From: Candidatus Shapirobacteria bacterium UBA1435
GTDB lineage: Bacteria; Patescibacteriota; Microgenomatia; UBA12405
DNA length: 7,278 nt
NCBI GenBank assembly: GCA_002329385.1
Contig: DCTR01000041.1
Span: 19,166-26,443 of the forward strand
Reading direction: 5' to 3'
Shown here: positions 1 through 5,397 of the stretch, piece by piece
How the letters are laid out: the number at the start of each line of letters is the position of its first letter
How positions within the stretch are numbered: the first letter of the stretch is position 1
Translations under genes and position numbers: made by a program
Notes under the pieces: model-generated
What the model was told of the DNA's origin: nothing
Seen by the model: only the letters and a program-made list of their open reading frames with translations
Databases searched by the model: none

Positions 1-23
1 AGGTAAAAATTAAATAAGGAGAT

Positions 24-99
24 TGGCAGGGACGGAGGGACTCGAACCCCCACCGCCCGTTTTGGAGACAAGCATTCTAGCCGGTTAAAATACGTCCCT
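24..99 (-). tRNA. trnW: tRNA-Trp, anticodon CCA, CCA end encoded
   Basis: This tRNA decodes UGG. On the minus strand a 7-bp acceptor stem (AGGGACG at 99-93 with CGTCCCT at 34-28) is followed by G73 at 27 and a genome-encoded CCA at 26-24. The anticodon stem CTTGT/ACGGG (5 bp, two G-U pairs) closes the loop CT-CCA-AA, with the anticodon at 65-63. The T arm is GGGGG-TTCGAGT-CCCTC, with one G-U pair. U8, the D-loop GG and discriminator G73 are as expected for bacterial tRNA-Trp. The D stem is weak, with a U-U opposition at its first pair, and the variable loop is only 4 nt. Only one base (100) separates the gene from the U-tract of the terminator upstream, so expression should depend on read-through from the promoter at 235-262. 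No clear terminator follows in bases 1-23, so a further gene may be co-transcribed beyond the window edge. Confidence 0.97.
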
Positions 100-100
100 A

Positions 101-131
101 ACAAAAATCTCCCGGGTTAGCCGGGAGATTT
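101..131 (-). terminator. Intrinsic terminator directly before tRNA-Trp
   Basis: A perfect 11-bp inverted repeat (AAATCTCCCGG at 131-121, CCGGGAGATTT at 115-105) encloses a 5-nt loop. On the minus strand it runs into a T-rich tract, TTTTTGTT, at 107-100. There is no T-run on the plus-strand side, so it works only in the minus direction. Its 5' arm is also the partner of the antiterminator segment at 180-171. Confidence 0.87.
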
Positions 132-155
132 GGAAATTCTTTAGAAGAAATTGTT

Positions 156-227
156 TTATGCCGTAAAAACATCTCCCGACTGGGCTGAAAGGCTTCGCCA
201 CCAGAGTTGAGAGACGACAGTTGACAT
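156..227 (-). CDS. Trp leader peptide with tandem Trp codons (attenuator peptide, 23 aa)
   Basis: This small ORF starts at ATG 227-225 and stops at TAA 158-156. Its product begins MSTVVSQLWWRSLSAQ and ends FTA. Residues 9 and 10 are consecutive Trp codons (TGG TGG, 203-198), the hallmark of leader peptides that sense charged tRNA-Trp. The ATG lies 7 nt after the -10, so the mRNA is predicted to be leaderless or to carry a one-base leader, in line with valS, the NUDIX gene and lemA. No Shine-Dalgarno is present. The Trp codons sit inside the first hairpin (215-171), between its two arms. A ribosome stalled there would block that hairpin and leave segment 2 (180-171) free. The peptide itself probably has no function beyond its translation. 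Translation has not been shown; the case rests on the Trp pair, the promoter, the downstream hairpins and the tRNA-Trp that follows. Confidence 0.83.
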   Translation of the reverse strand: MSTVVSQLWWRSLSAQSGDVFTA

Positions 228-234
228 TGGCGAT

Positions 235-262
235 ATTGTAGCAACAGAAGGGAAATTGTCAA
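235..262 (-). promoter_or_regulatory. Strong sigma70-type promoter of the Trp leader and tRNA-Trp
   Basis: On the minus strand a perfect -35 TTGACA (262-257) is followed by a 16-bp spacer and -10 TACAAT (240-235). The -10 is preceded by TGC, giving an extended -10. Transcription should start about 7 nt downstream, near 228, immediately before the leader ATG at 227. It is the best-matching promoter in the window and points away from rplY. Confidence 0.87.
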
Positions 263-301
263 ATCCAATAGTTTATTGGACAACGATTATGGCTAAAAGC
301 G

Positions 302-310
302 TGATATAAT
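302..310 (+). promoter_or_regulatory. Extended -10 promoter of rplY
   Basis: TGATATAAT fits the extended -10 consensus TGnTATAAT exactly. No convincing -35 lies 16-18 bp upstream; a TTGGAC at 276-281 is too far away (23 bp). Transcription should start near 317, giving a leader of about 67 nt. The same nine bases occur at the NUDIX gene promoter (3888-3896). It is divergent from the Trp-leader promoter at 235-262. Confidence 0.75.
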
Positions 311-312
311 TG

Positions 313-366
313 GCCTACTTAATCTCGAAGGCCGCGCCAACACCAAATTTAGAGTGGCGGGTAGGC
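313..366 (+). repeat. Inverted repeats in the rplY upstream region
   Basis: GCCTAC (313-318) is complementary to GTAGGC (361-366), and inside it CGCCA (335-339) is complementary to TGGCG (355-359). If transcription starts near 317 the outer left arm is mostly not transcribed, so the outer repeat may be DNA-level or chance. The inner 5-bp hairpin would lie in the mRNA leader. No known riboswitch or ribosomal-protein leader is recognised. Confidence 0.35.
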
Positions 367-383
367 TGTAGAAAAAGAAGAAA

Positions 384-1061
384 ATGGCAAAAATCTCACA
401 CCAAATTGAAGCAAAAATTCGTGATATCAAAGGTAAAAAAGTTAAAAAGTTAAGACAGGAAGGATGGCTGCCGGCAACAGTTTACGGCAAAGGAATGGAA
501 TCGCTGGCAATACAGATAGAAGGAAAAGGATTGGCGGAAGTTTTTGAGGCGGCGGGAGAATCGGGGCTGGTTGAATTGACGATTGATGGTCAAAATTATC
601 CGATCATGTTTAGAAACCCACAGTACCACCCGGTAGGCGGAGAACTAATTCACATCGACTGCTATAAGGTTAATCTTAAGGAGAAGATTGTGAGTAACGT
701 GGCAGTAGAGGTGACCGGCGAATCGATGGCGGTTAAGTCGGGATTGGTGATGGTTGAGGTAACCAACGAGATTGAAGTCGAAGGTCTGCCCGTAGATTTA
801 CCGGAAAAGATCGTAGTTGACGTTTCGGGACTGGAAAAGGTGGATGATTCGATTACCGTGGCTGATTTAAAAATCGACAGGGAAAAGATTGAAGTTAAAA
901 CCAACCCGGAACAGGTGATAGTTAAAATTGAGGAACCGAAAGAAGAAGTAGTGGCGACAGAGGAAGTGCCACCGTCAGAAGTACCGGCGACAGAGCAAAA
1001 GCCCGAAGGCGAAACAGAGGAAAAGGGTGAAGAGGGAAAGAAAGAGGAAGAAAAAGGATAA
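384..1061 (+). CDS. rplY: 50S ribosomal protein bL25 (CTC/TL5 type)
   Basis: bL25 binds 5S rRNA in the large ribosomal subunit. The 225-aa product has the two-domain CTC/TL5 layout. The N-terminal 5S-binding domain (about 1-95) carries the typical LRQEGWLPATVYGKG stretch (23-37) and FRNPQYHPVGGELIHIDCY (76-94). The C-terminal beta domain (about 97-183) contains the EVEGLPVDLPEKIVVDVS segment. Residues 184-225 form an acidic, Glu/Lys/Pro-rich tail, probably disordered. ATG 384 is the first start that keeps the whole N domain; only a weak purine run (GAAAAAGAAG) precedes it, not a true Shine-Dalgarno. It is expressed from the promoter at 302-310 and is convergent with the 160-aa gene, with stops 9 bp apart. 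The family is clear; only the function of the tail is unknown. Confidence 0.97.
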   Translation: MAKISHQIEAKIRDIKGKKVKKLRQEGWLPATVYGKGMESLAIQIEGKGLAEVFEAAGESGLVELTIDGQNYPIMFRNPQYHPVGGELIHIDCYKVNLKEKIVSNVAVEVTGESMAVKSGLVMVEVTNEIEVEGLPVDLPEKIVVDVSGLEKVDDSITVADLKIDREKIEVKTNPEQVIVKIEEPKEEVVATEEVPPSEVPATEQKPEGETEEKGEEGKKEEEKG

Positions 1062-4317: not shown

Positions 4318-5397
4318 ATGAAAATAATTAAAATCGGAAAAGGAAAAGAGAGAATGCTGAAGACGGTGGCGGAATGCATCAGGAAGGGAGGATTAGTGGT
4401 TTTACCAAGCGACACGGTGTATGGGTTATTTGTGGACGCGACAAACCAAAAAGCAGTAGATAAACTTATCGGATTTAAAAACCGATGGCAGGGCAAGGCA
4501 ATATCGGTAGCAGTGGCCAACAAGGAAATGGCGAAGAAATATGTGGTTTGGTCGAAGACGGCAGAGAAAGTAGTTGAAAATCTGTTACCAGGACCGTTTA
4601 CCATTGTCTGCCAGGGGAAACACCGACTGGCCAAGGGAGTGGAAGCAGCAAACGGAACGCTGGGGATCAGAATACCAGACAACCAGCTGATAAACGAAAT
4701 AGTAAAAACGATAAACCGGCCGATTACAGCAACCTCGGCTAACCTATCAGGCAGAGCACCACATTATTCAGTCGACAGCCTGCTGTCGTCGTTGAGCCAA
4801 AAGAAAAAGACGATGATAGACCTGATAATTGACGGGGGCAAACTGCCAATAAATCTGCCGTCGACGGTTGTCGACGCGACAGAATCGGAGATCAGGGTGT
4901 TAAGACGTGGAGAGCTGATGGCGGGGGGGACGGAAACGTTAATATCGGATTCAGAGAGAGAAACTGGCAAGATCGCAATATTTTTGCTTAAAAAGGCGAT
5001 CAAAAAATACAAGGCAAAAAATAAACCGATAACGTTTGTGCTAACCGGAGATTTGGGGGGAGGTAAAACAGTTTTTGCCAAGGCGGTGGGAAAAGAACTT
5101 GGAGTGAAAGGAATAATTACCTCACCGACTTTCACGATTATGAACGAATACGAGATGAGGAATGATTTGGTGAAGGGGAAATTTATTCATTTTGATTTAT
5201 ACAGGATCAAGAGTGAAGTGGAGCTTGAGGAAATAGCTTTCTGGAAACAGTTTGATAAGGAAAACGTTGTCTGTATTGAGTGGCCGGAAAACATGGGAGA
5301 AGAGGCGCTAAAGAAATTAAAGAAGGCAACCAGCTTGATCAGAGTCCAGTTTGAGTATGTCGGCCAGACAAAACGAAAAATAAGCTACCAATTTTAA
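4318..5397 (+). CDS. tsaC-tsaE: TsaC-TsaE fusion: threonylcarbamoyl-AMP synthase plus t6A ATPase
   Basis: This 359-aa protein joins two enzymes of the t6A37 tRNA modification pathway. Residues about 8-200 are the YrdC/TsaC domain, which makes threonylcarbamoyl-AMP from Thr, bicarbonate and ATP. It shows LPSDTVYGL (29-37), FKNRWQGKAISV (53-64), LPGPFTIV (90-97), TSANLSGR (139-146) and LPSTVVDAT (180-188). After a short linker (about 201-212), residues about 213-359 are TsaE, the ATPase that works with TsaB-TsaD. It shows Walker A GDLGGGKT (244-251, K250), TSPTF (268-272), HFDLYR (291-296) and IEWPEN (320-325). Both halves keep their key motifs and the frame is open throughout, so this is a real fusion, not two genes read together. 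It follows the NUDIX gene by 16 bp with no clear Shine-Dalgarno. Its TAA abuts the stop of the opposing TPM gene with no gap. Confidence 0.97.
   Translation: MKIIKIGKGKERMLKTVAECIRKGGLVVLPSDTVYGLFVDATNQKAVDKLIGFKNRWQGKAISVAVANKEMAKKYVVWSKTAEKVVENLLPGPFTIVCQGKHRLAKGVEAANGTLGIRIPDNQLINEIVKTINRPITATSANLSGRAPHYSVDSLLSSLSQKKKTMIDLIIDGGKLPINLPSTVVDATESEIRVLRRGELMAGGTETLISDSERETGKIAIFLLKKAIKKYKAKNKPITFVLTGDLGGGKTVFAKAVGKELGVKGIITSPTFTIMNEYEMRNDLVKGKFIHFDLYRIKSEVELEEIAFWKQFDKENVVCIEWPENMGEEALKKLKKATSLIRVQFEYVGQTKRKISYQF

Follow-up and report, generated by a model that had tools for sequence, protein, structure and literature searches.

Predicted trp-type attenuation of a tRNA-Trp–trpB–trpS operon in a Candidatus Shapirobacteria genome, and its histidine and phenylalanine counterparts

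Leader-peptide attenuation is a textbook mode of control of amino-acid biosynthesis operons. In trpL of Escherichia coli, a short leader ORF with tandem Trp codons and the hairpins 1:2, 2:3 and 3:4 precede the operon trpEDCBA. The DNA analysed here, a stretch of 7,278 nucleotides from a Candidatus Shapirobacteria genome (the window), raises the question whether a device of this type can also stand in front of a tRNA gene: a promoter, a leader ORF with consecutive Trp codons and a set of competing hairpins had been noticed on the minus strand just ahead of a tRNA-Trp gene, and this gene was taken to be the controlled target (hereafter the original prediction). From the sequence of the locus and its relatives, we conclude that positions 262-100 of the minus strand very probably act as a trp-type ribosome-mediated transcription attenuator, and that its predicted target is the operon tRNA-Trp–trpB–trpS instead of the tRNA gene alone.

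The features of the leader are collected in Table 1. The near-consensus promoter and the 23-codon ORF with its consecutive Trp codons, both part of the original prediction, were confirmed; two promoter-like matches were found in window positions 1-400, compared with a mean of 0.5 in shuffles. The 1:2 stem, proposed as 215-209/177-171, is one pair longer in the fold (216-209/177-170), and its 7-bp core has -7.3 kcal/mol. The proposed 10-bp antiterminator (2:3, 180-171/129-120) was likewise recovered, at -16.4 kcal/mol, and the 3:4 terminator (131-121/115-105) has 11 pairs and -17.5 kcal/mol, with the stem finishing 5 nt 5′ of tRNA-Trp. The terminator had been described as an 11-bp stem with a U-tract; the stem stands, the U-tract is short and overlaps the stem, and a stock terminator rule called no terminator at the window leader despite the 11-bp stem and the TTTTTGTT tract. 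U-tracts are clearer in several relatives than in the window. An extra stem was found between the start (227-223) and the end (162-158) of the ORF, which is longer in relatives.

Table 1. Features of the Trp leader and the tRNA gene behind it, in window positions
Feature	Position	Strand	Basis or remark
Sigma-70-like promoter: TTGACA 262-257, 16-nt spacer, TACAAT 240-235	235..262	-	11/12 matches
Leader peptide ORF MSTVVSQLWWRSLSAQSGDVFTA, 23 codons, ATG to TAA; ATG 7 nt past the -10 box	156..227	-	
5′ arm of the ORF-start:ORF-end stem (partner 162-158)	223..227	-	fold; compensatory changes in relatives
Segment 1, partner of segment 2 (177-170)	209..216	-	fold
Paired regulatory Trp codons TGG TGG, at codons 9 and 10	198..203	-	
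Segment 2: 180-171 with segment 3; 177-170 with segment 1	170..180	-	
3′ arm of the ORF-start:ORF-end stem (partner 227-223)	158..162	-	fold
Segment 3: terminator arm at 131-121, antiterminator arm at 129-120	120..131	-	
Segment 4, closing the terminator stem on its 3′ side	105..115	-	fold; compensatory changes in relatives
U-tract TTTTTGTT, weak; first three U belong also to the stem	100..107	-	sequence
Second-copy tRNA-Trp, anticodon CCA, heading the operon	24..99	-	

The 1:2, 2:3 and 3:4 pairings are mutually exclusive, antiterminator and terminator having segment 3 in common. The leader from 229 to 104 folds to -40.3 kcal/mol (z -4.34), and none of 200 shuffles was equally stable. Among 1500 dinucleotide shuffles of the 136 nt from 235 to 100, an ORF with WW occurred in 3, a terminator in 11 and an equal antiterminator in 0; the three were found jointly in 0/1500. 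The full-length fold of the leader prefers 3:4; therefore, the switch depends on co-transcriptional timing.

The tRNA-Trp gene follows as described, at 99-24, and the original prediction had allowed for an unseen gene downstream, for example trpS. Evidently, this caveat was justified: the operon order is leader, tRNA-Trp, trpB and trpS, with the last two genes outside the window, and the tRNA as sole target was rejected because trpB and trpS were found downstream. Gene trpB begins 8 nt outside the window after a gap of 30 nt from tRNA-Trp, in which two bases are N in the stored sequence. It scored 562.7 bits with TIGR00263 (cut-off 392.45), and trpS scored 287.5 bits with TIGR00233 (cut-off 176.75). 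The assembly that contains the window is 799 kb in 48 contigs and 94% complete; a search for trpA in it gave only a partial match below the cut-off. In the lack of a convincing trpA, trpB would serve in salvage, probably of indole. Elsewhere in the window, at 4318-5397 (+), a single ORF fuses Sua5/YrdC and TsaE domains, which stand for two steps of the tRNA t6A pathway; an ORF similar to it in length and look is located at L038, 2108-3184.

An ordinary tRNA-Trp is present elsewhere in the window genome and in most relatives checked, and the attenuated tRNA-Trp is therefore a second copy. With the other tRNA-Trp of the window genome as query, matches (E up to 1, many of them fragments) were obtained in 32 of 32 family genomes, and ARAGORN called tRNA-Trp at 24 of 26 submitted ordinary-copy loci. 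The upstream DNA examined for the ordinary tRNA-Trp gave no sign of an attenuator, the copy of the window genome lying at a contig end. In tRNA model scores, seven operon copies gave 50.2-62.8 bits and five ordinary copies 58.2-62.0 bits (50.2 and 58.2 bits, respectively, in the window genome); in four of the operon copies (G020, G023, G025 and G032), the anticodon stem drawn by ARAGORN is broken.

We infer the working of the switch, namely leaderless translation, stalling, switching and a physiological gain, from the observed sequence, pairing potential, conservation, gene order and matching of codons to genes. RNA polymerase would begin transcription at or next to the ATG, and the ribosome would read the leader as a leaderless mRNA. 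When Trp-tRNA(Trp) is plentiful, the ribosome would proceed as far as the stop (158-156), where it would mask some of segment 2 (180-171), upon which the 3:4 terminator would form just 5′ of the tRNA. When Trp-tRNA(Trp) is scarce, the ribosome would be stalled at codons 9-10, over segment 1 (216-209), allowing the 2:3 pairing; no terminator would form and transcription would read through to tRNA-Trp, trpB and trpS. With codon 10 in the A site, and by the general figures for ribosome footprint lengths, the ribosome would cover about 216-187, that is segment 1, and segment 2 would be free. Without translation, the model predicts that the 1:2 hairpin forms with the AUG paired and that the terminator is left on. 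The output is likely more acceptor tRNA, more charging enzyme and more tryptophan from salvaged indole. Several marks of an attenuator are found together: the codons of the leader ORF match the amino acid of the downstream genes, these genes (tRNA-Trp, trpB and trpS) use or make that same amino acid, antiterminator and terminator exclude each other, the predicted fold has a 1:2 hairpin for the untranslated state, and the Trp codons are placed such that a ribosome stalled on them would mask segment 1 and leave segment 2 open.

To examine the conservation of the leader, a covariance model (R1) was built on eight leaders and searched against the 34 genomes of the family. Matches at E up to 0.1 were found in 31 genomes; most of the weaker ones (<40 bits) that were examined look by eye like plain terminators, and L085 (32.6 bits, Trp) and L056 and L065 (His) were kept on the basis of ORF and gene order. 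Inspection of the R1 matches with a retrieved locus gave 13 Trp leaders in 13 genomes, with no R1-type Trp leader among the inspected matches of the other 21. At class level, with E up to 1e-4 and stricter filters, 3 of 187 genomes were matched, all within this family. In that search R1 also failed to find two leaders present in the sample, those of G010 and G014, as well as the unrelated leader of G046, so the lack of an R1 match does not argue that a leader is absent. A further model, R2, retained only 8 base pairs and was left out of the searches. The leader pattern was matched exactly in six named records, five from Candidatus Shapirobacteria and one named Patescibacteria only.

All 13 leaders have an ATG start and a Trp at codon 10. 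Tandem WW is present in six of them, two separate Trp codons in one and a single Trp in six; the expected conservation of tandem TGG therefore holds for one Trp codon in 13/13 and for two or more in only 7/13. The stop is at codon 24 in 11 leaders and earlier in two, giving ORFs of 14, 20 and 23 codons. In 13/13 the best -10-like box, sought in the range of 3-13 nt, sits 6-10 nt 5′ of the ATG, from which leaderless or nearly leaderless translation is predicted; the Trp leaders are thus probably leaderless. tRNA-Trp comes after the terminator in seven leaders and five have no tRNA behind the terminator, with a racemase or trpS next; in G028 the contig stops just within an apparent tRNA. Gene trpS is found downstream in 10/13, including the window genome (9/12 others), with only its first residues on the contig in G025 and at a distance of 2-4 kb, behind a second TrpRS, in G001 and G031. 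The contig ends before trpS in G023 and G028, and trpS is on another contig in G032.

An Asp/Glu-racemase-family gene was located after the Trp leader at L037 (371-1051), L051, L085, L034 and L035, its identity being tested with PF01177 for L037 and L085 and judged by eye for L051, L034 and L035; it precedes trpS wherever the contig continues. Locus L036 (contig JAHBAQ020000034.1) ends inside an apparent tRNA, and the stretch at the contig end resembles a sequencing adapter, so the tRNA there was probably cut by the assembly. In G036, the ORF MSNFKKFSLVLGLINPWGKAGLLA at L070, 1471-1545 (minus orientation), is leader-like and is accompanied by a terminator and an antiterminator of 13 bp.

The pairings were examined in an alignment of eight sequences (A1). 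Taking start:end, 1:2 and 3:4 together, 84.8% of the stem cells were paired, compared with 34-54% when partners were slid, and two-sided changes were found in 5 pairs, located in the start:end and 3:4 stems. The covariation score was reached by 0 of 500 shuffles, a comparison in which related sequences can beat shuffles without structure. In fixed columns of A1, the 1:2 stem had no two-sided change in 5 pairs, and the 2:3 helix, 86.1% paired, had none in 9 pairs. Compensatory changes had been expected in all three pairings; they were thus found in 3:4, as well as in the start:end stem, and not in the fixed columns of 1:2 and 2:3. Because the paired register of 2:3 moves between divergent leaders, every segment 2 was paired in turn with the segment 3 of its own leader and with foreign ones, and the duplexes were compared. 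Over 13 leaders the mean was -16.5 kcal/mol for own and -13.4 kcal/mol for foreign partners, and 0 of 100000 permutations, which ignore relatedness, were as good. When the own 2:3 duplex was compared with 300 shuffles, at most one was as good in 12 of the 13 leaders and 13 were in G006. The own segment 3 was better than the foreign mean in 12/13 rows and the best of 13 partners in 5/13, a low figure that is expected because many segments 3 are alike. The trp-type logic of the original prediction is therefore supported by the Trp codon in 13/13 related leaders and by an own 2:3 pairing that is better on average.

The same arrangement was found with other codons. At hisS loci of the family, leaders with HH to HHHHH are located ahead of terminators. 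Using a rule that defined a unit as terminator, antiterminator and ATG ORF of 8-45 codons, we scored 24 hisS, 22 trpS, 8 further R1-derived and 28 pheS loci, some R1 loci coming from the same genomes. Tandem His was present in 13/24 hisS loci and in 0/22 trpS, 0/8 R1 and 0/28 pheS loci; tandem Trp was present in 2/22 trpS loci, in 3/8 R1 loci (which were chosen for a Trp leader) and in 0/52 others. Tandem Phe was present in 3/28 pheS loci, two F-rich pheS leaders (G010 and G004) falling short of the FF criterion, and also in 1/22 and 1/8 of the Trp loci, where FF (2/30) comes from ORFs in other frames across the leaders.

The window genome carries three such leaders: WW with tRNA-Trp, HH with tRNA-His and hisS, and FFF with pheS, the last in the order infC, rpmI-like gene, rplT, leader and pheS. 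In a codon-blind scan of 30 tRNA loci of this genome, tRNA-proximal units were found only at tRNA-Trp (WW) and tRNA-His (HH), and one further unit was inside trpB; 3 of 33 tRNA matches were without a locus, and upstream DNA is short where a locus lies at a contig end. A single tRNA-His was found in the window genome, and it sits behind the His attenuator. The His terminator stem ends 7-21 nt 5′ of tRNA-His in this genome, G002, G023 and G033, and a His leader stands on either side of tRNA-His in G001, G029, G031 and G033; G002 joins them if its second leader, with HQYH, is counted. The recurrence of one design with His codons at tRNA-His/hisS and with Phe codons at pheS suggests that the codon and not the peptide is sensed. 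This agreement of codon and downstream gene is the best support for the attenuator.

In G033, an M20-family peptidase-like gene (L056, 1660-2739) lies between the His leader and hisS, and is possibly a histidine source. At four loci, L203, L211, L212 and L217, no Phe-rich leader was seen, and a terminator comes after the rplT end, as judged by eye, directly 5′ of pheS; this end holds Phe codons. Translation of rplT itself might serve as the leader there.

Beyond the family, such a leader was found at 0 of 6 hisS loci from other families of the order. In the class more widely, 27 additional hisS loci yielded 3, in three other families. Genome G046, from another family, has both WW–terminator–tRNA-Trp–trpS and HHH–terminator–tRNA-His–hisS, and its trpS scored 279 bits with TIGR00233 (cut-off 176.75). 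R1 has no match in G046, so a shared origin of the two systems is no more than a possibility. In G035, from another family of the order, a T-box match at L011, 1200-1430 (+), is located ahead of tRNA-Trp (1486-1556). It is full-length and below threshold, with 37.6 bits (gathering 93) and E 6.3e-7; judged by this match, the tRNA-Trp of G035 may be under a different tRNA sensor.

Other explanations of the window leader were weighed against attenuation. TnaC, an arrest peptide, detects free tryptophan within the exit tunnel of the ribosome, and a leader of this kind would turn the operon on at high tryptophan. It would accord with the six leaders in which a single Trp, always codon 10, suffices, and with the residues past this Trp, AQSG[D/E]V, which are conserved in 7/13. 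However, the conserved codons overlap segment 2 and the start:end stem, and this stem varies by compensatory change; the stop codon shifts, G006 and G010 lack the tail, and a conserved peptide running to a fixed stop codon, as in the TnaC type, was not found. The His and Phe leaders, unrelated in sequence, have the same design, and the tRNA, trpS and trpB would be needed at low Trp. An arrest peptide is thus improbable here.

The hairpin could also terminate a short upstream transcript constitutively, or serve in its processing, with the ORF incidental, and its position 5 nt from the tRNA 5′ end and the weak U-tract are consistent with this. We regard this as very unlikely, since five of the 13 relatives retain leader and terminator without a tRNA, before a racemase gene or trpS, and since the ORF, the Trp codon and segment 2 are conserved alongside the hairpin. 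A T-box-like leader, in direct contact with uncharged tRNA-Trp, would find a parallel in the sub-threshold match before tRNA-Trp in the related genome G035, but the window has no T-box (RF00230) match at E up to 1, and an ORF with cognate codons is conserved instead, which makes such a leader extremely unlikely.

In G001 and G031, the operon tRNA-Trp has G1:C72 and A73; the loci concerned in the two genomes are L083 (2966-3988, minus strand), L019 (tRNA-Trp) and L049. The second TrpRS of G001 passes TIGR00233 and gave its top matches with PRK12285 models, below their cut-offs, and with TrpRS structures of archaeal and eukaryal type. It is followed in G001 by an ordinary TrpRS fused to an aminoacyl-tRNA editing domain. 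The archaeal/eukaryal likeness was tested on the second TrpRS of G001. The tRNA-Trp and second TrpRS of G001 and G031 possibly form a natural second Trp pair.

Taking these data together, we consider it moderately probable that codon-specific leader-peptide attenuation acts on tRNA supply, as a tRNA-dosage feedback loop in auxotrophic cells, both among the relatives of Shapirobacteria and in one or more further families of the class. This reading takes in the only tRNA-His found in the window genome and the auxiliary tRNA-Trp, each behind an attenuator of its own codon, the tRNA-His placed between two His attenuators in some genomes, and the G1:C72/A73 tRNA-Trp with a second TrpRS in two genomes, the tested one, of G001, being archaeal/eukaryal in type.

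The window leader resembles E. coli trpL in its tandem Trp codons, its three hairpins and its predicted control by ribosome position. It differs in that it is probably leaderless and its ORF start and end pair, in that the stop codon is 3′ of segment 2 in 11/13 of the leaders here, and in that the genes controlled are a tRNA gene, then trpB and trpS, and not trpEDCBA. In gamma-proteobacteria, pheST is controlled by the pheM attenuator. The Phe-rich leader of the window genome, between rplT and pheS, is similar to it, also in the gene order known from E. coli, but belongs to a set of three cognate attenuators within a single small genome. The T-box riboswitch (RF00230) also controls transcription by charged-tRNA shortage, but senses the tRNA by RNA contact and without a leader peptide.

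In Streptomyces, attenuators of trpS and leuS have been predicted, with pheST also named, according to the available text (PMC1262725), and in S. lividans a leaderless single-Trp trpL2 (MMTRTCTQLWRAA) is placed before trpS (PMC8079986, available part). These systems are similar to ours in having a leader peptide before trpS, and trpL2 also in its single Trp and leaderless form; they are from a different phylum, and the available parts of the two papers describe no tRNA gene or His counterpart (PMC1262725, PMC8079986). The trpL of Sinorhizobium meliloti is leaderless too, the leader RNA starting at the trpL ATG, and, unlike the window leader, controls trpE(G) biosynthesis, as stated in the excerpt available (PMC7298713). 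For leader peptides in this bacterial group, the one passage found in a narrow literature search concerns bacteriocin processing (PMC7143001). A tRNA gene under a leader peptide was not recognisable among the matches listed, in titles and abstract openings of mainly open-access literature. The proposed mechanism is classical and, going by these listings, the bacterium and the tRNA genes as first targets appear to be new.

Here, predicted attenuation is found in bacteria of the candidate phyla, where its targets would be genes for tRNAs, for aminoacyl-tRNA synthetases and for salvage. It provides a concrete and testable model for how such cells may sense amino-acid shortage. Within a single lineage, the versions for Trp, His and Phe form a natural series, in which the codon differs and the design is constant. 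If the model is true, the degree to which a tRNA is charged would feed back on the gene that encodes it.
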